Source of the DNA: Candidatus Scalindua arabica
GTDB lineage: Bacteria; Planctomycetota; Brocadiia; Brocadiales; Scalinduaceae
Length of the DNA: 44,666 nt
Assembly: GCA_018263435.1 (NCBI GenBank)
Contig: JAANXD010000043.1
Location: 1-44,666, forward strand
Direction of reading: 5' to 3'
Shown here: one piece after another, positions 33,260 to 44,666 of the stretch
How positions within the stretch are numbered: the first letter of the stretch is position 1
Layout of the letters: every line of letters begins with the position of its first letter
Notes under the pieces: model-generated
Database searches by the model: none
What the model was told of the DNA's origin: nothing
The model's input: the letters and a program-made list of their open reading frames with translations, nothing else
Made by a program: the position numbers and the translations under genes

Positions 33260-33424
33260 ATGGCTAAATGGGAGTGTTCTGTTTGCGGTTATATATATGA
33301 TCCGGAAAAAGGAGATAGTATTAATGGTATTCCACCTGGTACTGCTTTTGAAACATTGCCGGATGACTGGGTTTGTCCGGCATGCGGCGCAGGCAAAGAT
33401 GCATTTGAAAAGATAGAAGAATGA
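33260..33424 (+). CDS. Rubredoxin
   Basis: This 54-aa electron carrier has four iron-ligand cysteines in CSVCGY (6, 9) and CPACGA (39, 42). The typical YDPEKGD stretch and LPDDWVCP are present. The ribosome site AAGGAGG is eight bases before the ATG. It most likely donates electrons to FprA and rubrerythrin encoded upstream, forming an oxygen/peroxide reduction chain. It is short but unmistakable. Confidence 0.97.
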
Positions 33425-33516
33425 GACTTAATAACAAGAGGGTAATTATTAAAAAATCAATACTATTGACTCAATCAGTCCATTGTTGAGATATTGCTAT
33501 CAACTTTTTACCCAGC

Positions 33517-34308
33517 TTATGGAAGCAAATTAAGTTTTACAATTTGTACTATTTCACTGAGAACTTGGCTCGCGGAATTCTGAATCAAATAATCCGCATA
33601 TTTATCATAGGGAGTAGGAGTCCAGTTGATAATTGCTAGTTTGGCTCCTGCTTCTTTCGCCTTTACAGGTAAATAGGCTGCCGGCTGTATTTCCAGGGAG
33701 GAGCCGATAACAATGAAGAGTTCTGAAGAATTTACCATCCTTATGGCCATACGCGCAATATTAGGTGCGATATTTTCTCCGGGAAAAACTGTATCCGGCT
33801 TCAATATGCCCTGACAATAATCACAATAAGGCACTATTGTTCCTTTTGCTATAGACTCATAAACAATTTTGCAGTCATATTTTTTTCCGCAGTCCAGACA
33901 AGAGATTGAATGAAATGTTCCATGGATTTCAATAACAGCTTTAGAGCTATTACCAGCTTTTTGATGAAAGCCATCCACGTTCTGGGTTATAATTCCTCGC
34001 AGGAGTTTCATTTTCTCTAGCTCTGCAAGGGCAAAGTGTGCATGATTTGGTAATGCATGCTGTATAATTGTATAGAATTCAGCACATGCTTGCCAGCATC
34101 TTCTTCTACTCTCACTGTTATTTACAAAATTCGATATGTAGGAATCCGTTATGCTATATTTCCCCCAAAACTGTCCATTCGTACCCCTATAATCAGGGAT
34201 GCCCGATTCAGTACTAATACCCGCTCCTGTAAGGAAAACCGGGTGAATGCTGTTTGATATTGCCGTTGCCAATTTCTTCATTACTAAACTCATTTTATAT
34301 TCTTCCAA
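33517..34308 (-). CDS. cobB: Sirtuin (NAD-dependent protein deacylase)
   Basis: This 263-aa SIR2-fold enzyme uses NAD to remove acyl groups from lysines. Seen are GAGISTESGIPDYRG, TQNVDGFHQKAG, the catalytic histidine in IEIHGTFHS, zinc cysteines in CLDCGKKYDC and CDYC, and GSSLEIQPAAYLP. It lacks membrane or extra domains. It is the last gene of the peptide-ligase operon, overlapping the urea transporter by 19 bp (starting at 34308; ATG 34293 is an alternative). The coupling to that operon is unusual for a sirtuin. Confidence 0.9.
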   Translation of the reverse strand: MEEYKMSLVMKKLATAISNSIHPVFLTGAGISTESGIPDYRGTNGQFWGKYSITDSYISNFVNNSESRRRCWQACAEFYTIIQHALPNHAHFALAELEKMKLLRGIITQNVDGFHQKAGNSSKAVIEIHGTFHSISCLDCGKKYDCKIVYESIAKGTIVPYCDYCQGILKPDTVFPGENIAPNIARMAIRMVNSSELFIVIGSSLEIQPAAYLPVKAKEAGAKLAIINWTPTPYDKYADYLIQNSASQVLSEIVQIVKLNLLP

Positions 34309-35399
34309 TAAAGAGCGGCACTTCTGTGTCGCTTATATTCGCGTAATGTTTCCTCCGGACGAACTGCTCGATTTAGATCCACCGCAAATAGCCGTGGAAA
34401 TTTTGTAGCAAAGTAAGGTAGCTTAAGGGGCAAAATGAATAAAGTAATTGTAACATTAAAAGCAATAGTTAAAATGGGAATTCCATGGGGTGCTAAAATA
34501 GGAGCAATCAGTAACCACAAAAGAATGCCCAAGCAGGTACCAAGCATGGAATACAAAAAACAGGGAATATTAAATGCAATAAAGAAACCGCCAAGAGCAA
34601 TAGCAATAGGCACACTGGTAAAACCATGAAGTCCGAGTTGGTTAAGGTTTAGTCCTTCTTGACCCATCAGTAAGTATACAGTTATGAGACTTAAACTTCC
34701 ACCTACAAGGGCAAATAAGGCCGATGTCTTGGAGTAGAGCAAGATACCGGTGAAAAATATCCCAATAATAATGGCACGGTTGAATAACCAATTTCCCAAA
34801 GAGAACCATTCTTTAGATTGGAAGATTCTCTCTTGTACGTTTGTCATGTCTAAAGTACTTATGTTTAGGTGGATAAGCTCAAAGGAATTCTTAGGCAACA
34901 GCCCAAAGACATATGCATAACTAATAGACAAAAGAAAGATTACCACAAAAGGAATACTAGTAATAGGTAGATTCACTTTACTGTCACTGATGATATTTCT
35001 CAGAAGGATTGCATAAAAGGTAGAAAGACCGGACGCCAGGATTAGAATGGGTATACTAACATAACTCAGTGGCCAGAAAAATGGCCAGATTAATCCTAAT
35101 AGAGCTCCGTTATAACCAAATAAACCATTCTCTATGTAGACTGACTTTTGTCTGAAAATGAAAGCCGTAAGCGTTGCAACGGCACTCCCAATGAGGCAAT
35201 GTGGTACAATAACCCACCAACTGAATGCGAAGGCCACAAGAAATAAGAATCCAGACAAAGGGCTACAACAAAAGAGTATTTGTCCCACACCTTTAAATGT
35301 TGTATTAATGAATCTGAAGCTTTTGTTGTTATTAAGTATTCTCTCTTTTTCTCGCAGCCAATTAGTAGATAATTTAATAAAAACTAAAGGGTTAAGCAT
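34290..35399 (-). CDS. Urea transporter, UT family
   Basis: This 369-aa channel has about ten hydrophobic helices in two related halves. LFGYNGALLGLIWPFF in the first half and LGLHGFTSVPIAIALGGFF in the second resemble the two signature loops of UT-type urea channels. It should pass urea, probably passively. It follows the PLP decarboxylase by 29 bp and overlaps the sirtuin, so it appears to belong to the same operon. This suggests that urea or a urea-like amide is a substrate or by-product of the pathway (inference). Confidence 0.8.
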   Translation of the reverse strand: MLNPLVFIKLSTNWLREKERILNNNKSFRFINTTFKGVGQILFCCSPLSGFLFLVAFAFSWWVIVPHCLIGSAVATLTAFIFRQKSVYIENGLFGYNGALLGLIWPFFWPLSYVSIPILILASGLSTFYAILLRNIISDSKVNLPITSIPFVVIFLLSISYAYVFGLLPKNSFELIHLNISTLDMTNVQERIFQSKEWFSLGNWLFNRAIIIGIFFTGILLYSKTSALFALVGGSLSLITVYLLMGQEGLNLNQLGLHGFTSVPIAIALGGFFIAFNIPCFLYSMLGTCLGILLWLLIAPILAPHGIPILTIAFNVTITLFILPLKLPYFATKFPRLFAVDLNRAVRPEETLREYKRHRSAALYWKNIK

Positions 35400-35428
35400 A
35401 TATTGAAATCAGTAGTATCCGATTAGGT

Positions 35429-36796
35429 TTATTTTCGTTTTTTAGTAAGAAGTCTTCGCGGTACTCGTTCCAGTCTGCGAACATCCTGGGTTGTCTCCGG
35501 TCGTTTTACATATTCAGACTTACCATTATTGAGCAATACGATACCCGGCCTAGGAAAAATAAACTGCATCGACTGGGAGAAATTGTAGGCGCCTGTATTT
35601 TTTACCACCAACATATTCCCCTTTTGCAGAGGTGGCAAACGCATACTCTGTCGTAATACATCTATCTGCATACAAAGAGGTCCACATATGGTCGCTTCTT
35701 CTACCGATACACCGGCGCTGTGTACAGGAGATATATCATGTTTAAAATAAAATGCTGTGGGCAAGAGATTTACACCAGCATCAACTATAACAACTTTAGA
35801 GCCAGTTGCTGAGCGTTTTGTTGACACTACTGTAGTGAACAAAAACATACACTCGTCTACAATAGATCTCCCCGGCTCTAGAATAAGTCGAGGATTGCCT
35901 ACGAATTTATCTAAGCTTTTTATAAGTGGATTACACACGGCATCTGCATATTGTTCATAGCTGGGACAAGTGGTGATTCCAGGCATAAGGTGTTTATGGA
36001 GTGTATTAGGAGATGCATATCCACCTCCCAGGTCAATAAACTCAATTTCTATATCAAACTCATTCTCTAGACTTACTCCCAACGTGACTAGATTATTAAT
36101 TAAATTAGCGTAAATGTTAGGATCCGCAAGATAAGTACCTGCATGACAGTGAAGCCCAGTGACTTTCAACCACCCTGTATCTGTAGCCTTTCGACATGCA
36201 TCAACTACCTGTCCACACTCATAGTTAAAGCCAAATTTGTCCCATGTGGGACAGTTTAGCTGCATATTAACTCGAAGGCCAATTTCGACAACCTTATTGG
36301 AACGGCGTGCCACTTCTTCTAGTTGATAAAGCTCATTGAAGGAATCTACATTAATAATGGAACCGTTATTGACAGCTCTTGACAGGTCTGGTAAAGGTTT
36401 GTAAGGACCATTAAAGATAATCCTGTCTCCTGGTATTCCTAAATCTTCTGCAATATCATATTCAAAGCCGGAAACTACCTCTGCCCATGCCCCCTCCTGT
36501 GCTAGAATGGCACACACTGCAGAAAGATAATTGGTTTTGTAAGAATATGCAATCATTGTGTTAGGATAACGCGAAATAAACGCATCTCGAAATTCTCTAA
36601 ATCTATCCCTTAATATCTTTTCTGATATAACATAAAGAGGTGAACCGTATTCTTCTAAAAGATTTTCTACCGAAAAACCATCTATCTCGTTAAAAGGCAT
36701 TGAATCAAGAACCATACCTGCATGCTTTCCAAGGGAAAATGGCGAATGAAGTGTTACCATTGGCTTTTCGTAAATGTACTTGGTTTTTTTAGCCAT
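35429..36796 (-). CDS. PLP-dependent decarboxylase of the DAP/ornithine decarboxylase fold
   Basis: This 455-aa type-III PLP enzyme carries the PLP lysine K87 in MIAYSYKTNY. HCHAGTY (216-222), GGGYASP (257-263), EPGR (307-310) and the active-site CGPLC (371-375) follow in the usual LysA order. N-terminal residues GSPLYVISEKILRDRF match the family. It decarboxylates a basic or D-amino acid. DAP is possible, but the operon context (ATP-grasp, PqqD) suggests a secondary-metabolite substrate. Its start overlaps the preceding ATP-grasp gene by 8 bp. Confidence 0.88.
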   Translation of the reverse strand: MAKKTKYIYEKPMVTLHSPFSLGKHAGMVLDSMPFNEIDGFSVENLLEEYGSPLYVISEKILRDRFREFRDAFISRYPNTMIAYSYKTNYLSAVCAILAQEGAWAEVVSGFEYDIAEDLGIPGDRIIFNGPYKPLPDLSRAVNNGSIINVDSFNELYQLEEVARRSNKVVEIGLRVNMQLNCPTWDKFGFNYECGQVVDACRKATDTGWLKVTGLHCHAGTYLADPNIYANLINNLVTLGVSLENEFDIEIEFIDLGGGYASPNTLHKHLMPGITTCPSYEQYADAVCNPLIKSLDKFVGNPRLILEPGRSIVDECMFLFTTVVSTKRSATGSKVVIVDAGVNLLPTAFYFKHDISPVHSAGVSVEEATICGPLCMQIDVLRQSMRLPPLQKGNMLVVKNTGAYNFSQSMQFIFPRPGIVLLNNGKSEYVKRPETTQDVRRLERVPRRLLTKKRK

Positions 36797-37835
36797 TGTG
36801 AATCAATCTCCTAGATGAAGTTAGGGAAAAAAATGTATGTATATCACAAGCTATGTCTTTCGTATTCCTAATGTACATATGACCTGTTTTATATTTCATG
36901 CTAGCCATAGGAGCTTTACCCATAGCCAATTTTATGGCTTTTAAAGGTAGATTTTGTCCAATCTTAGCAGCAAGATAAATCCAAGAAGGAAAACAAGGTT
37001 GTAACCTTATAAGGTTATAAGAGTAACTGATTACATCTTTTTTAAATGTTAACTCTATTGGTCCTGTCCACTTAAAATGTTTAACTAATTTTTTGGTAAA
37101 GTCTATAAGTTCTTTGGCCACGACAGATACTACAATCCAAGGCGCACCTTGATCTGTTAAAACCAGCTTCTTAATGACAACCATACCATATAATTTACTG
37201 TTTTCATCTGCCAGTGTAGTGAGTGAATATTCCTCTCCATTTATATACTCCTGTATGCATATCGGATCATTACTAAATTGAAAATAAGAACTAACAAAAA
37301 CCTCTGCCTCATTAATGTCATGAGCCTTATAGTTCTCTGCTACACTTTTAATGATTAGCGGAAAGCGTAGAAAAGAAACCTTTTTCGCCAAATTCCGTTT
37401 ATCAGAAATGAATATATAAGGTGGAATTTTGACACGATTATAAGATACAAAAGAAAAAACCTTCGGATCAAGAATATTTATAACTTCATCCATCTGAGGA
37501 GTAATGATTTTTATTTTTCTACGCTTAAACCTCTTTTTCAATGCCGCAAAGGCAGGCACCTCCTCGGGTATGGCAGGGATGACTACTTCTAAACCGCTTT
37601 TTTCTTTAATCCTAATAATTTCCTCAAAAAGGCTATCCTTATTCTGTAACGGGTTGTCAATCAGATGGACTTCATCGAATATATCCTTAGTGTAACATCC
37701 AGGGGATAATGGGTCGTAACTAATACCAAGAACCTTGATATTTTTGTTTAATTTCAGGCATTTAGCTATACCTAATCCTGACATCGGATTGTCAGAAATA
37801 TCAAGACCTGTTATTCCGACACATAAGTTCTTCAT
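36789..37835 (-). CDS. ATP-grasp protein with degenerate metal site, paralogue 2
   Basis: This 348-aa protein shows the ATP-grasp layout of carbamoyl-phosphate-synthase-like ligases. An N-terminal Rossmann-like part (GITGLDISDNPMSGLGIAKCL) precedes the ATP-binding stretch FPLIIKSVAENYKA, CIQEYINGEEYSLTTLADE and the WTGPIELTFKKD segment. Where the paralogue has EINSRFP, this one reads IRLQPCFP (276-283), so the Mg-binding Glu and Asn are replaced by Arg and Gln. It aligns with the upstream gene over its whole length and starts one base inside that gene's stop (TAATG). It may be a regulatory partner. Confidence 0.85.
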   Translation of the reverse strand: MKNLCVGITGLDISDNPMSGLGIAKCLKLNKNIKVLGISYDPLSPGCYTKDIFDEVHLIDNPLQNKDSLFEEIIRIKEKSGLEVVIPAIPEEVPAFAALKKRFKRRKIKIITPQMDEVINILDPKVFSFVSYNRVKIPPYIFISDKRNLAKKVSFLRFPLIIKSVAENYKAHDINEAEVFVSSYFQFSNDPICIQEYINGEEYSLTTLADENSKLYGMVVIKKLVLTDQGAPWIVVSVVAKELIDFTKKLVKHFKWTGPIELTFKKDVISYSYNLIRLQPCFPSWIYLAAKIGQNLPLKAIKLAMGKAPMASMKYKTGHMYIRNTKDIACDIHTFFSLTSSRRLIHNG

Positions 37836-38901
37836 TAGTTACCTCTTTTTATACTATGGTACATTAAACTTCCTCTTGTAGCAAGATTACCCAGGGTTTC
37901 AAAACTGCAAATGTGTTCTTCAACCGTACGCACAAAAATGGTTCCAAGTTTACATTCCCGAAATGGTGTTACTTTTTTCCCCAACAACAATTTAACTGCT
38001 GCAAGTGGTAAATTCTGACCTGCTGCTACTGTCAGATATACCCATGCAGGAAAACGGGAGTTAATCTCCAAAAGGTACATTTTACCAGATGAGGACTCTT
38101 TAATTAATTCCAATTCTAAAGGGCCAACCCATCCCAAGGCCTTTATAATTCTATCTGTTAATGATAATATACTCTTGTCTCCTATAGTTATACCTGCGCA
38201 ACCCTTACCTTTTTCTGTAAGAGCAATTTTTTTCATTGCAACTTTGCCAATAATATTAGATTTTTCATCTGCCAGTACTGCTACGTTGTATTCTTCTCCT
38301 GGTATAAACTTCTGCAATAAGAGAGGGAGACCCCACTCTCTGGACAGTCTATCAAAATAAACTTTTGCTGTTTCCAGCGAATTTATCCTACGAGCATCTG
38401 TAAAGGACCCTTTCAGAACAGAAGGGTATCCAATGGTCTTGTCATGTTGTATGTCCTTAAATTCGTATATTATCCTAGACTGAGGTGTGTCAAAGTTATG
38501 TTCTTTGCAAAAGTTTGCAAGCATTTGTTTCGAACTGATATGAACCTTCGCCCTGTCGGGTATCAACATTTTAATTCCCATATTCCTCAATCTGGATTTT
38601 AGAGACGAATACAACATTACCTCAGCATCTAGGGAAGGAATGATTATGTGCAATTTGGCGAGTTTATTTATTTCTATCAACCGACTTAGTAATGGCGCTT
38701 CACCTTCTGATGGGTATGGTACTATATAGACCTCGTCTAGTATGGAATTATCATAGGCGCCAGTAGATAGAATGTCGTACGTCAACCCAATAATCCTGAT
38801 CCGATACCGGGTATATTGGACTCTTGAATTGCTCTACTTATACTCAGGCCTGGTCCTGGATTGTTATTTGCGTTAAGTCCTGTAATAGCGATGTTAATCA
38901 T
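37835..38901 (-). CDS. ATP-grasp ligase, paralogue 1, with apparent N-terminal frameshift
   Basis: This is an amide-forming ATP-grasp enzyme of the carbamoyl-phosphate-synthase-like type. ATP-binding and metal motifs are intact: YPSVLKGSFTDA, LLQKFIPGEEYNVAVLADE, LELELIKE and YLLEINSRFPAWVY (metal-binding E and N). The open frame runs 37835-38785. The true start is probably ATG 38901, overlapping the PqqD gene's stop by 8 bp and encoding MINIAITGLNANNNPGPG, which matches the paralogue's N-terminus. The frame breaks near 38805-38812 (one base missing), then resumes as IIGLTYDILSTGAYDN. This is either a sequencing error or a real mutation. It likely joins two amino-acid-like units. Confidence 0.8.
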
Positions 38902-39277
38902 CTTCATTCGGTACAATTAGGCCCATTTCCATCAAATTGTCATAGAAGTTACGAAAGTCACTGAGGAATTTTGATGAGCCAGTACCATATCTTCTTGCCA
39001 CTGCTTTGACTATTACAGTAATTGGCTTATTTTCTCTCATCATCGAATATATATATAATCCCGTTGAATTAAGAAAATAAATATGGCCAAGATTTGAATC
39101 AAATATAAAACCCTGATCGTTATCAGAGGGTTCGAGAACTATATGGTCTGGAACTCTATATTTGATTAAAGAGTCTACTTCGCTAATATGTGCTTCACAA
39201 AACGTAAATCCTTCAATAGCTAGGTTGCGACAGTTCCGTTTCCCCTTTTTTACAAAAGAGCATCTTTTCTTTCCCAT
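38894..39277 (-). CDS. Zinc-finger plus PqqD-like peptide-binding protein
   Basis: This 127-aa protein has two parts. The N-terminus carries a short Cys/His motif C6-x9-C16-x10-C27-x2-H30 (KKGKRNCRNLAIEGFTFCEAH), a likely zinc knuckle. Residues about 40-124 are PqqD-like: YRVPDHIVLEPSDNDQGFIFD ... LNSTGLYIYSMMRENKPITVIVKAV ... FYDNLMEMGLI. PqqD domains bind a precursor peptide and present it to a modifying enzyme. The gene is 28 bp after the TPR gene, overlaps the first ATP-grasp gene, and so begins the biosynthetic part of the operon. No short precursor-peptide gene is apparent. Confidence 0.82.
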   Translation of the reverse strand: MGKKRCSFVKKGKRNCRNLAIEGFTFCEAHISEVDSLIKYRVPDHIVLEPSDNDQGFIFDSNLGHIYFLNSTGLYIYSMMRENKPITVIVKAVARRYGTGSSKFLSDFRNFYDNLMEMGLIVPNEDD

Positions 39278-39305: not shown

Positions 39306-42300
39306 CTACTTAATCCCTGATATCCCTTCAAGTGAGCTGGCATGGTAAGGATTAATTTCAAGTGCCTTAACAAAAGACTTCTTGGCCTCGGAATAATTCT
39401 CATTTCTTAGGTAGCTCCACCCCAGACCATTGTGAGCATCTACCCAATCACTGTGTGCTTTGCTAACTTTATCGAACGCATCTATGGCCATGTCATAATT
39501 GCCCATGTTATACCAGCACCACCCAACAGTCAATCTAACAGCGCTGGCTGTAGGGTCTTTAGAAAGTACCTTTTCGAATTCCTTTATTGCAGCATCAAAC
39601 TTCTTTTGGGCGTAATTCAGATAGCCCATACCCTTTACAGCGTCTGTATCATCTGGCATATTAGATAATGCTGTTTGGAAGGCTTCTCCTGCTTCGGGGT
39701 ACCTGAGTTGATTATAGTAAGTCCATCCCAGTGTGTTGTATAGCTCCCACATACTCTCTTCCTCAACCATTTCTTTCAGTTCATCGTCAAAAATATAAGC
39801 AGGATAGATACCTATCGCTGTGCGGAAGGTTTCGACAGCCTTATCCTTGATGCCGTTCTTTAAGTAACTCCAGGCCAACCCATCATAGGGACCAACAAGG
39901 TATGGGTTAATCGTTATCGCAGCCTGAAATTCTTTAATCGCGGTTTCATAATCTCCAATCTCATTATAGCACCATGCCAGGGTGTTTTGGGCATCATATT
40001 GGCCCTTCAGGAGACCAAGAGATTTCCTTAATGCTTCAATAGATTTTTCATATTCCCTGTTGTTGTAATATACGAATCCTAAACCACGCAAGGCGTCAAC
40101 ATTATCTGGGTCATCTGAAATGGTTGTTTGAAACTGTTCCATTGACCCTTCGTAATTACCCTTCCAGTAATTACACCAACCTATGCCACTTCGTGCCCGC
40201 CATTTTTCTTTATCCGGGAATTTTCCCGTGGTGTCGGCTATTGTCTCTTCAAACACTTTGATAGCTTCATCATATTTTCCCTGATAGAAATGTGCCCATC
40301 CAAGGTTAAAACTGCCAAACCTTGCCGCTTTTATGGCTGCGAGTCCGTTGTTGGCGTCAGCGTAATATGGGTATTTTTTCAGGCACATCAGAAAACTGGC
40401 TTTGGCTTCTTCTAAATCTTCCTTGAAAAAGTAACACCATCCCAAGCCATCCCAGGGATCGCACCATGTAGGATTCTCTTCAGCCACTTTTTTAAATTCT
40501 GCTATTGCCTTATCGTATTCCTTAATACTTAAGAAACTCCAGGCTAATGTACCTCTTGCATTACTGACTACGAGGAATTCTCCGGCTGTCCCAGGGAAAC
40601 TTGTATACTCCTGAATCGGTAGGGATTCTTCTTTTATGGAAAGGCTCTTATTGAGGGATTTGATAGAATTATCATAGTCCTTTAACTGATAATATGCATA
40701 CCCTAGACCTTGCAACGCCTCTGCATCCTCTGGTTTCTTTTTTGCAGAAGTGGCAAAAACATCTTTTGCCTTTTCATATTGCTTGGTATTGTATAATCTC
40801 CAGCCTAAATATTTAAGAAGAGCATACCATCCATCCTCGGCAGTTAGCGCTGCTTCGAATTCATCATCAATGGATGGGTAAATGCTTACAGCGGTATTAT
40901 AGTTCTTTAATGATTTTACTTTATCTCCGGTTTTGTAATACACATGGGCGATTCCGTTATATGGATCTGCAAGGTAGGGATTGATCCTCATAGCGCCTTT
41001 AAAGCCCTTTATTGCCTTTTCGTAGTTATCTAGCCGATAGTTAGCCCAGGCCATCATTGAAACAACATCTGCTTGTCCGGGAAAGATTTTAAGACTCTTC
41101 TCTAAGGTTGTAATGGCCTTTTCGTATTCATCCTTCCTGAATTGAACGTAGCCCAAACCCTTTAGAGCATCGGAATTCTTAGGAAGGAGCTTGAGTGTTT
41201 TTTTGAATATTTTTTCCGCCTTACTATAGTCTTCCTTCCAGTAGTAACTCCACCCCAGACCACCATACAAAGACCACTTTTGATCCTTTGGAAAACGGTT
41301 ACTTTTATCATCAATTACCTTCCTAAATTGCTTTATGGCCTCATCATAATTTCCCGCATTGTAATAACTCCATGCTATGTTGGACATTTGGTATCTCCAT
41401 GCATTTACTCTTCTCAATCCATCATTAGCAGAGACATGCTTGGGAAGCAGCTTTAGCGCCTCTCTAAACGATTTGTCTGCCTCTAAATACTCTTTTTTCC
41501 AGTAATAACACCACCCCATTCCATCATGTGCGTTTGCCCAGTCAGGGTGTTTTTCTGCTATCGGTTTTAGCCCGTCAATGGCAGTGTCATATTCCATCAG
41601 GTAGAGATGGCTCAGCCCTTTCATCATCTTGGCATCATCGGCATCTGGATGCTTGGAAATGAATTCCTGCAAATCTTTAATAGCGTCTTTATATCTCCGC
41701 GTCCTTAAGTATGTAGAGGCAACACCCTTTACGGCCTCTTCATTACCCGGATCTTTAACCAATGCCTTTTTAAAGTTGGTTTCTGCCTCTACATACTTAA
41801 GCTGATTGTAATATCCCCATCCCATAGCAGTATAAAGATCCCACCACTTTTCCTTTTTTAGTACGTCCAGGATCCTTGTTTCCATTCGTGGTGACAAATA
41901 CAGGTAATCCTTAAGTTTTCTCCGGGCTTCTTCTTTTTTCTCACTGCTATAGTAACTCCATGCCATACCATAGTGTGCGCTAGTAAAGGCGGGATAAATA
42001 TCAATTACCTTCTGGTATTCCTTTACCGCCTTATCATATTTGCCAAGTTCATGAAGATTTTCACCTATAGTGCTTAAAATATCTGATTGCAGGGGAAGGA
42101 GTTTCAAGGAGCCACGTAAGGCTTCTATTGCCTTCTCGTACTTTTTGCCTTTGTAGCGGCTATATCCCAGTCCCTTAAGGGCGTCAGCGTTTTCGGGTAA
42201 GTGTTTTAAGGACTTATTGAATGCATTCTCCGCCTCACTATATTCCCCGTTCCAGTAATAACTCCACCCCAAACCACTATGCAAAGACCATTTTTCGCTT

Positions 42301-43973
42301 TTTGGAAAACGGTTACTTTTATCATCAATTACCTTCCTAAATTGCTTTATGGCCTCATCATAATTTCCCGCATTGTAATAACTCCAGGCCGTATTAGAGT
42401 TTTGGTATCTCCATGCATTTACCCTTCTCAGCCCATCGTTAGCAGAGACATGCTTTGGAAGCAATTTTAATACTTCTCTAAAAGACTTGTCTGCTACTAA
42501 ATAGTCTTTCTTCCAGAAATAACACCACCCCATTCCGTCATGGGCATTTGCCCAGTCAGAGTGCTTCGTCACAACCTGCTCTAGCTGAGATATAGCATCA
42601 TCATACTGTAAGTTGTAGAGGTAACTAAGCCCCAGCATGAGTCTTGCTTCATCCTCCTCTTGGTTGTCCTCGAGAAAGGCTCGCAGGTCTTCTATGGCCT
42701 GACTGTACATCGCCATCTTAACTTTCACATAGGCCTGACCCCTTCTTGCATCAGTGTCTTTAGGGCGCTTTCCCAGCGCTTTGGTAAAGAAATAATCTGC
42801 ATCTGTATATTGAAACTGATCGTAATACCCCCATCCCATAGTGGCATAAAGATCCCACCATTCTTCACGTTCAATCATCTCAATGAGTTTAGTATCCACA
42901 AGCTGAGGATACAACCTCAGGGCCTCTCTATATTCACTTTTGGCGTCTTTTTTATTACCAGTCTTGTAGTAACACCAGGCAAGCCCGCTGTGCAAATATG
43001 AGTCTAACGGGTTTTCCTTGATGGCCTGTTTAAAATGCTTTACTGCTTCATCATATTTATTCTCCTTATAGTGTTTCCATGCATCATCCTGTGCCTTGGC
43101 AAGAACTATCCTTTTAACAGTAGTGGCACCTATGTCTGCACTATACAGGTATGGATTGAGCTTTTTTGCCTTATCAAAGGAGTGACGAGCCTCTTCATAT
43201 TTCTCTAACTTCGTATAGTTCCACCCTAAGTCAACATATGGGTCAGCCCAATTATCGAAACTGGCAGTCAAGCTATGCAGTGTTTTTATCGATTCTTCAA
43301 ACCCACCAAGTTCGTAATAGCTTTTAGCTAGTAAAAGCCTAACACGAGTTAATTCTGGCTTCCTCTTTGCCACTTTCTTGAGAAAGTGGATAGCCTTGTT
43401 ATATTCTCCAAGTTGAAAATAACAGAATCCCATTCCCTTCATACCATCAGCATCCGCGGGGAATTCCATGTAATAACGTTGAAATGACTTTAGTGAGTTT
43501 TCATAATCAGCAATTTTGTAGTAACTCCATCCAAGACCAGCGTAGGCAGAGTATTTAGAGGAATCCAGATAGAGAAGGGTTTTGAATTCCCTGATTGCGT
43601 CATAAATCCACCCTTTCATGACGTAACACCATGCCATACCCTCGTGGGCATCAAGGCTGCGGCTGTCCAAGCAGTAAAGGGCATTGAATGCCTCTAGCGC
43701 CTTATCTGTTTTACCCTCTTTAAAATAACTCCACCCTAACATACCCATAGTGGATGTTGCGTCAGGTCTTAGGGCTATTGATTTTTCTAAGGTCTTTGTA
43801 GAATTTTCATAATCTTTTGCCAGAAATTGGGCAGTACCTATCCGTTCTTTGTTCCTGGCACTCATATAATTACAACCACTGGAGAAGATCAATAATATAG
43901 TTAGGAAAATTAATCCACAGTTTCTTGGAACAATACGATATGCTCGCGTCAAAACAGTAAATATGGCATTCAT
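39306..43973 (-). CDS. Giant TPR-repeat lipoprotein, 1555 residues
   Basis: The N-terminus has a hydrophobic export segment (LIFLTILLIFSSGC) with a probable lipidated Cys at 34. The rest is almost solid tetratricopeptide repeats (AHEGMAWCY, GLGWSYYK ... YDEAIKHF-type helices), a surface for protein-protein contact. Repeats are grouped into modules of about 338 residues, and two copies share an identical 86-bp DNA stretch (41287-41372 and 42301-42386, 1014 bp apart). Probably periplasmic, outer-membrane-attached. The PqqD gene starts 28 bp after its stop, so it likely heads the operon. Copy A/B repeat element lies upstream. Confidence 0.9.
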   Translation of the reverse strand: MNAIFTVLTRAYRIVPRNCGLIFLTILLIFSSGCNYMSARNKERIGTAQFLAKDYENSTKTLEKSIALRPDATSTMGMLGWSYFKEGKTDKALEAFNALYCLDSRSLDAHEGMAWCYVMKGWIYDAIREFKTLLYLDSSKYSAYAGLGWSYYKIADYENSLKSFQRYYMEFPADADGMKGMGFCYFQLGEYNKAIHFLKKVAKRKPELTRVRLLLAKSYYELGGFEESIKTLHSLTASFDNWADPYVDLGWNYTKLEKYEEARHSFDKAKKLNPYLYSADIGATTVKRIVLAKAQDDAWKHYKENKYDEAVKHFKQAIKENPLDSYLHSGLAWCYYKTGNKKDAKSEYREALRLYPQLVDTKLIEMIEREEWWDLYATMGWGYYDQFQYTDADYFFTKALGKRPKDTDARRGQAYVKVKMAMYSQAIEDLRAFLEDNQEEDEARLMLGLSYLYNLQYDDAISQLEQVVTKHSDWANAHDGMGWCYFWKKDYLVADKSFREVLKLLPKHVSANDGLRRVNAWRYQNSNTAWSYYNAGNYDEAIKQFRKVIDDKSNRFPKSEKWSLHSGLGWSYYWNGEYSEAENAFNKSLKHLPENADALKGLGYSRYKGKKYEKAIEALRGSLKLLPLQSDILSTIGENLHELGKYDKAVKEYQKVIDIYPAFTSAHYGMAWSYYSSEKKEEARRKLKDYLYLSPRMETRILDVLKKEKWWDLYTAMGWGYYNQLKYVEAETNFKKALVKDPGNEEAVKGVASTYLRTRRYKDAIKDLQEFISKHPDADDAKMMKGLSHLYLMEYDTAIDGLKPIAEKHPDWANAHDGMGWCYYWKKEYLEADKSFREALKLLPKHVSANDGLRRVNAWRYQMSNIAWSYYNAGNYDEAIKQFRKVIDDKSNRFPKDQKWSLYGGLGWSYYWKEDYSKAEKIFKKTLKLLPKNSDALKGLGYVQFRKDEYEKAITTLEKSLKIFPGQADVVSMMAWANYRLDNYEKAIKGFKGAMRINPYLADPYNGIAHVYYKTGDKVKSLKNYNTAVSIYPSIDDEFEAALTAEDGWYALLKYLGWRLYNTKQYEKAKDVFATSAKKKPEDAEALQGLGYAYYQLKDYDNSIKSLNKSLSIKEESLPIQEYTSFPGTAGEFLVVSNARGTLAWSFLSIKEYDKAIAEFKKVAEENPTWCDPWDGLGWCYFFKEDLEEAKASFLMCLKKYPYYADANNGLAAIKAARFGSFNLGWAHFYQGKYDEAIKVFEETIADTTGKFPDKEKWRARSGIGWCNYWKGNYEGSMEQFQTTISDDPDNVDALRGLGFVYYNNREYEKSIEALRKSLGLLKGQYDAQNTLAWCYNEIGDYETAIKEFQAAITINPYLVGPYDGLAWSYLKNGIKDKAVETFRTAIGIYPAYIFDDELKEMVEEESMWELYNTLGWTYYNQLRYPEAGEAFQTALSNMPDDTDAVKGMGYLNYAQKKFDAAIKEFEKVLSKDPTASAVRLTVGWCWYNMGNYDMAIDAFDKVSKAHSDWVDAHNGLGWSYLRNENYSEAKKSFVKALEINPYHASSLEGISGIK
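41287..42386. repeat. Identical 86-bp segments in the TPR gene, 1014 bp apart
   Basis: Positions 41287-41372 and 42301-42386 are identical, with further similarity on both sides. The spacing is 338 codons, so the module copied is in frame. This indicates a recent duplication or gene conversion. Confidence 0.9.
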
Positions 43974-44149: not shown

Positions 44150-44666
44150 TTAAAAACTAAACTCAAAGCCTACGGCCATGAGAAATGCATCGCTGGGATC
44201 GCCACTTTTATCCTTCGGAAGAACAGGGCTCTGGCCCAGATCACCTCTTGCCAGCAAGTCTCCTCTTACTTCTCTGTAATACTTTCCAGGGAAGAAAAAG
44301 CCTCCTTGCATGTTTACTGAGAGGTGTTTTGTTATAGCATAACTTGTAAAGAAATCGATCTCGTGTCCAAGCTCGGAAGGCAATCTTTCTACCTGGCCGG
44401 AGCCATTGAGACCATAACCCGCTTCATCCGCATGCATTTTCCAATAGTCTATTGACATGTACATCTTGTCTATGGGAAAAATCTCTACACCTACATTAGT
44501 GAAAATAACATTTTCAATTACAAACGGATCATTAAAGACACCCGGCCTGTCAATCCCAAAGTTAAATAAGCCGTGCTGAAGAAGGTGCTTTCAACGGCAG
44601 AAACACCAACGCCAATTTTTACGCCGCAGATTTCATGGTAAAGGAAGGGAGGAATTCCATACAGCC
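44150..44666 (-). pseudogene. AlgE-like outer-membrane barrel C-terminus, frameshifted, runs off the window
   Basis: Minus-strand residues near the stop read KHLSVNMQGGFFFPGKYYRE ... FLMAVGFEFSF, ending in the terminal Phe of outer-membrane barrels. Upstream the frame reads PGVFNDPFVIENVIFTNVGVEIFPIDKMYMSIDYWK, like alginate-export (AlgE-type) family proteins. Further upstream, near 44570-44590, that frame meets a stop while the homology continues in another frame (KIGVGVSAVESTFFSTAYL), so one indel is present. The 5' end lies beyond the window. It would precede the TPR gene in the same direction. Confidence 0.7.

Follow-up and report, generated by a model that had tools for sequence, protein, structure and literature searches.

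The closest described parallels to the genes studied here, a minus-strand cluster of six at positions 33517 to 39277 of a contig of Candidatus Scalindua arabica (Planctomycetota; GenBank assembly GCA_018263435.1, contig JAANXD010000043.1, positions 1 to 44,666, this whole stretch of 44,666 nucleotides being called the window below), are pathways in which a ligase acts first and a conjugated amino acid is then decarboxylated. In the rhizoferrin pathway of Francisella, these steps belong to FigA, a nonribosomal peptide synthetase-independent siderophore (NIS) synthetase, and to the decarboxylase FigC/FslC. In the butirosin system, BtrJ, BtrI and BtrK serve as ATP-grasp ligase, carrier protein, and type III decarboxylase, respectively, the last one acting on a tethered amino acid. 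Other systems share single traits. Clusters for ribosomally synthesized and post-translationally modified peptides (RiPPs) that depend on a RiPP recognition element (RRE), such as those for lasso peptides and PQQ, have a stand-alone PqqD/RRE-type protein adjoining a modifying enzyme, graspetide clusters use ATP-grasp ligases, and the housekeeping enzyme LysA has the fold, the pyridoxal phosphate (PLP) lysine, and the catalytic Cys of the decarboxylase in our locus.

The window genes, and the cassette to which they belong, combine these parts in a different way. Where the rhizoferrin pathway has a NIS synthetase, the cassette has an ATP-grasp protein, and its PqqD, urea-transporter-fold (UT), SIR2 or M23, and tetratricopeptide repeat (TPR) proteins have no counterpart in that pathway. 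Compared with butirosin, a PqqD-type protein stands in for the carrier (no acyl-carrier domain was found among the cassette proteins scanned) and membrane and sirtuin/M23 parts are added. In contrast to RRE-dependent RiPP clusters and graspetides, no short precursor gene, radical SAM protein or B2 protease was found in the cassette, the ATP-grasp is nearest to a carbamoyl phosphate synthetase (CPS)-like protein, 2pn1, and a decarboxylase is central. No description of this gene set was found in open papers, NCBIfam or PADLOC, a search that did not extend to subscription papers and preprints, and every cassette protein that was scanned stayed below the NCBIfam cut-offs. The statement of the first-pass annotation that no system with this exact set had been described thus stands as far as searched, but the set is not unique to this genome, as it occurs in at least five phyla. 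While the chemistry resembles known ligase-decarboxylase pathways, the architecture of UT fused to SIR2 or M23 may be of a new kind.

With the decarboxylase as bait, 56 loci were compared, spanning Planctomycetota, Bacteroidota, the phylum of Smithella, Armatimonadota, and Chloroflexota; phyla other than Planctomycetota were named after the loci that served as centres, and genes were called with profile searches together with a caller based on codon usage. In 54 of the 56, the decarboxylase has one or more other core genes beside it, and the core order is always PqqD–ATP-grasp–decarboxylase–UT. Judged by gene content and order, the window genes represent a rearranged version of a cassette with four parts, namely PqqD, an ATP-grasp, the decarboxylase, and UT with a bond-cutting enzyme. 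An M23 peptidase follows UT in 30 loci (fused in 29) and a sirtuin in 20 (fused in 17). Complete cassettes ending in M23 thus account for 29 fused and one unfused case, and those ending in SIR2 for 12 fused and three unfused ones (the window, G023, and G029); five further loci carry ATP-grasp, decarboxylase and a UT::SIR2 fusion with no PqqD match (all but L045 lie near a contig end), four loci are shortened by contig ends, and two consist of the decarboxylase alone. The operon proposed for the window is borne out as a conserved functional unit by this linkage, the homologues not being usually unlinked as the refuting condition named for it would have required, and the order was the same in all 20 loci fetched after the cassette had been defined, one of which ends inside UT at a contig end. 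Members of the decarboxylase profile (E cut-offs of 1e-140 to 1e-150, in a genome-contig scan and searches of sampled phyla) were present in 23 of 392 Planctomycetota genomes, 34 of 395 in the Bacteroidota sample, 13 of 297 in the Smithella phylum, 10 of 149 in the Armatimonadota sample, and 1 of 301 in the Chloroflexota sample. That so strictly ordered a cassette occurs in five phyla or more implies a function that is conserved and can be transferred. Some loci depart from the common layout: a cassette-family decarboxylase without cassette neighbours adjoins a sulfatase-like gene (L093:9657-11045), a divergent one at a contig edge, whose alignment has no catalytic Cys, adjoins TPR and barrel genes like those of the window (L091:125-1432), and in a Dehalococcoidales locus an O-methyltransferase gene lies between the decarboxylase and UT genes (L034:11398-12453), hinting at product tailoring.

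The decarboxylase (35429 to 36796, with N- and C-terminal domains of the ornithine/diaminopimelate decarboxylase type) is a type III, alanine-racemase-fold PLP enzyme of a new subfamily. The best solved relative of its profile is the N-citrylornithine decarboxylase FigC/FslC (7kh2, 324 bits, versus 257 for LysA 1twi), with which it has C354/M355 and a PT...Y specificity helix in common. Using the FigC residue roles published in PMC7857480, we found K63, R290, C354, M355, and Y383 kept in all 34 complete cassette decarboxylases. The citrate-binding H357, in contrast, is replaced by Ile (33 sequences) or Met (one), R387 by Gln in 34 of 34, and N389 mostly by Met. Position 355, next to the catalytic Cys (the CES motif in LysA), is Met in every cassette enzyme and the substrate-binding Glu in 20 of 21 LysA sequences from relatives, so that all 34 lack the acidic residue by which free basic substrates are bound. 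In the tree, the cassette enzymes together with FslC are separate from LysA; the NCBIfam models for lysA (251.7, cut-off 297.9) and FslC (255 bits, cut-off 500) both score below their thresholds, and the source genome encodes a separate, true LysA elsewhere (G000:C47). LysA identity was therefore rejected, and the grouping with housekeeping LysA that had been named as fatal to the operon proposal was not seen. Clade 2 of the type III enzymes holds, besides LysA-type enzymes, FigC, SbnH, AcsE, MccE, and BtrK (PMC7857480), and these non-LysA members act on conjugated or tethered substrates (PMC7857480; for BtrK, PMC8503589). The FigC-like residues, the tree, and the substrates of clade 2 point to a conjugated, non-citrate substrate, with which the earlier suggestion of an amino-acid or peptide conjugate agrees.

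Two ATP-grasp proteins, both PRK12767-like, precede the decarboxylase in the window. In ATP-grasp 1 (37835 to 38907), the one next to pqqD, the ExNxR motif is kept in 49 of 49 sequences (EINSR in the window), and the phosphate-binding Lys159 is invariant in the alignment. The only exception flagged by the script, L039, proved to be an ATP-grasp 2 lying at the edge of a contig and was counted as such. ATP-grasp 2 (36789 to 37835) is confined to the sirtuin clade, where it sits between the TPR or ATP-grasp 1 gene and the decarboxylase, and has ExNxR in none of 15 sequences, L039 included (the window reads LIRLQPCFPSW at this place). By its motifs, ATP-grasp 2 is a conserved pseudoenzyme and only ATP-grasp 1, the candidate amide ligase, retains catalytic residues, so the idea of two working ATP-grasps is not supported. 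The AlphaFold model of ATP-grasp 1 (predicted local distance difference test [pLDDT] score 88.5) has the uncharacterised 2pn1 as its best Foldseek match, followed by carboxylases and L-amino acid ligases, which does not settle the substrate. In the window, the true start of ATP-grasp 1 is the ATG at 38907, inside the end of pqqD, and the frame is broken near 38801 to 38815 by a 5-base insertion that neither orthologue has; as a result, the listed open reading frame (38785 to 37835) is a 5'-truncated fragment about 40 residues short. Either an error in the assembly or a genuine lesion could account for this insertion. A possible further frameshift is found at L132:7460-8459, where a single ATP-grasp gene is split over two frames.

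The PqqD/RRE-type, putatively peptide-binding protein (38894 to 39277) matches PF05402 above cut-off (6e-7), and its nearest solved relatives are the lasso-peptide RRE proteins TfuB1 and TbiB1. Its N-terminal Cys/His extension occurs only in the window and the two nearest orthologues; the zinc finger by which it had been described is thus a trait of the window lineage and not of the system. No recurring short precursor gene stood out in the gene-order tables, which compared open reading frames of 30 residues or more, and in the window the core genes overlap or nearly touch.

The membrane protein (34290 to 35399, UT match 7e-47) has a clear urea-transporter fold. It is separate from SIR2 in the window, G023 and G029; most relatives have it joined to SIR2 or M23 as a fusion. 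Of the pore residues of dvUT, the equivalents of Q24 and F27 are kept in the window, while that of E187 is Asn in the window, Glu in L029, and varied elsewhere in the family. The sirtuin (33517 to 34293, Sir2-Af2/CobB type, SIR2 match 3e-43) retains the catalytic His, the NAD motifs, and the four Cys that bind zinc, all of them invariant in nine members; the acyl-binding Arg of desuccinylases appears to be absent in a comparison with CobB and SIRT5. That a sirtuin closes the unit is not simply so, as an M23 peptidase holds its place, fused to UT, in most relatives, with the expected H, D, and HxH positions kept in 11 M23 domains. Both SIR2 and M23 domains are capable of cutting amide bonds, and the two may be functionally equivalent. 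Since sirtuins require NAD+, the C-terminus of UT is probably cytoplasmic, and M23 may lie on the same side as SIR2. UT::M23 proteins of about 700 residues (L088, L089, L094, L095, L096, and others) have an extra C-terminal region after M23, their last ~180 residues, which in the L088 protein has no Pfam match.

The cassette probably makes and exports an amino-acid-derived product. In the model that we favour, PqqD would hold a peptide or protein, as handle or client, for ATP-grasp 1, which would use ATP to join an amino acid to an acceptor through an amide bond; in the sirtuin clade, the dead ATP-grasp 2 would be its partner, either structurally or in regulation. The decarboxylase would then strip the alpha-carboxylate from the conjugated amino acid, so that the conjugate ends in an amine, and the amide-cutting domain on UT, which is a sirtuin in the window and M23 in the majority of relatives and probably faces the cytoplasm, would trim or release the product for passage through the inner membrane, from where the TPR and outer-membrane-barrel proteins would carry it onward. 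Gene conservation, order, fusions, catalytic residues, pseudoenzyme status, and decarboxylase subfamily were computed; substrates, order of the steps, topology, and export are what we infer. As a whole, namely that the window holds the sirtuin form of a conserved cassette for making and exporting an amino-acid conjugate, we give this model a chance approaching, but not reaching, even. The more specific proposal of a new envelope system, with a peptide-guided ligase and a conjugate decarboxylase whose product is released by an enzyme on a urea-channel-fold protein, sirtuin and M23 being interchangeable release or editing domains, is more tentative still. The cassette supplies a set of decarboxylases, a pseudo-ATP-grasp that is conserved, and a urea-channel fold fused to either a sirtuin or an M23 peptidase; if UT moves the product, the known range of roles of UT proteins would be widened, and likewise the substrate range of sirtuins if the sirtuin acts on a metabolite conjugate. 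The nearly complete Bacteroidota genomes with intact cassettes make the question testable.

Several points weigh against the export model. The analysis singled out no substrate and no short precursor gene; the solutes that pass UT channels are small and neutral, and a decarboxylated conjugate would bear an amine; the usual site of action of M23 peptidases is outside the cytoplasm, and the proposed topology is only indirectly deduced; FigC lies on a long branch, so that the exact position of FslC in the tree is uncertain; and the frameshifted ATP-grasp 1 of the window may be non-functional, unless the insertion is an assembly error. The main competing explanation is protein modification, in which the secreted TPR or Ig-like protein encoded next to the cassette serves as the client and is held by PqqD before export, ATP-grasp 1 adds an amino acid, the decarboxylase turns it into an amine-bearing side group, and the mark is subject to editing by the sirtuin or M23. 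In many loci, pqqD does have a gene for a secreted TPR or Ig-like protein as its direct neighbour, leader peptides are bound by PqqD/RRE proteins, and sirtuins target protein lysines; however, the secreted partner varies, being TPR in some loci and Ig-like in others, and the TPR C-termini compared have no common motif or tail. We regard this explanation as unlikely, though it deserves to be kept in view.

The kinship with FigC/FslC could also suggest a metallophore, that is, a rhizoferrin-like chelator made by the ligase and the conjugate decarboxylase in the absence of NIS synthetases. Yet both citrate-binding residues, H357 and R387, are replaced in every member, and no NIS synthetase or major facilitator superfamily (MFS) exporter was found beside the decarboxylase in Pfam and NCBIfam scans of the cassette proteins and in the gene-order tables, not every neighbour being scanned; a siderophore was rejected on residues and tree, and a metallophore of this sort appears improbable. 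Nitrogen or urea handling, with UT moving urea and the decarboxylase serving polyamine or arginine metabolism, is more improbable still. The UT fold and the kept Q24 and F27 equivalents would suit it, but the other pore residues vary over the family, the decarboxylase has no acidic residue for free basic amino acids, and full-length urease was found in none of 20 cassette genomes, where the search returned only two fragments of 35 to 40 residues while B. subtilis and other controls were positive. Urea assimilation was thus rejected, and the involvement of urea suggested in the first-pass annotation is not supported. Genes for sirtuins, UT proteins, and such decarboxylases are individually common, so a chance cluster of housekeeping genes might be imagined; the conserved linkage and order exclude it for practical purposes, and LysA is encoded elsewhere in the genome. 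Anti-phage defence was likewise considered and rejected, the six proteins having no PADLOC model match.

Domain matches and reading of the sequence confirmed the six minus-strand genes and their families as originally annotated. The ATG of the sirtuin at 34293 overlaps the UT stop as ATGA and is favoured over the listed TTG at 34308, a less likely start; the decarboxylase and ATP-grasp 2 genes overlap by 8 bp and the two ATP-grasp genes by 1 bp, and these start-stop overlaps indicate tight coupling. With a spacing of 28 bp, pqqD is preceded by the gene of a large secreted TPR protein (39306 to 43973, minus strand, 1555 residues, colinear with orthologues upstream of pqqD), and a partial outer-membrane beta-barrel gene (44150 to 44666, minus strand, Alginate_exp-like in the orthologue) runs into the contig end. 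As the block from the sirtuin through pqqD to the TPR and barrel genes is colinear with the G023 orthologue, the unit, by gene order, extends beyond the six genes upstream to these two. In the gene-order tables, a secreted TPR protein adjoins many cassettes and a barrel is often present. In other loci (L032, L033, L084, L085, L129, L135, L145, and L146), a secreted Ig-like protein is encoded just upstream of the cassette (e.g., L032:1444-1842 and L033:1474-1932), with one to three copies of a domain with the motif LGVSLYPK...YEVALW...GYHxEGLLAY. The L033 member has no Pfam or NCBIfam match, and the domain model (pLDDT 85) gave no Foldseek match below E 0.001 and no confident PDB match.

The contig belongs to its genome, given that one of the flanking genes has a 93% identical counterpart in a relative from the same genus. 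No cassette decarboxylase beyond the LysA level was found in the 12 same-genus genomes searched, and when plasmids were searched with the decarboxylase, no match exceeded ~32% identity, which is the LysA level. In three genomes of the genus, colinearity with the window ends at 33424 to 33451, just before the sirtuin end, and the sequences diverge from there; the block edge falls at 33424 to 33517, just past a rubredoxin gene. This break and the absence of the decarboxylase from same-genus relatives indicate that the block was either acquired in this lineage or lost from those relatives. Its nearest orthologues (78 to 79% for the decarboxylase) sit in another family of the same order.

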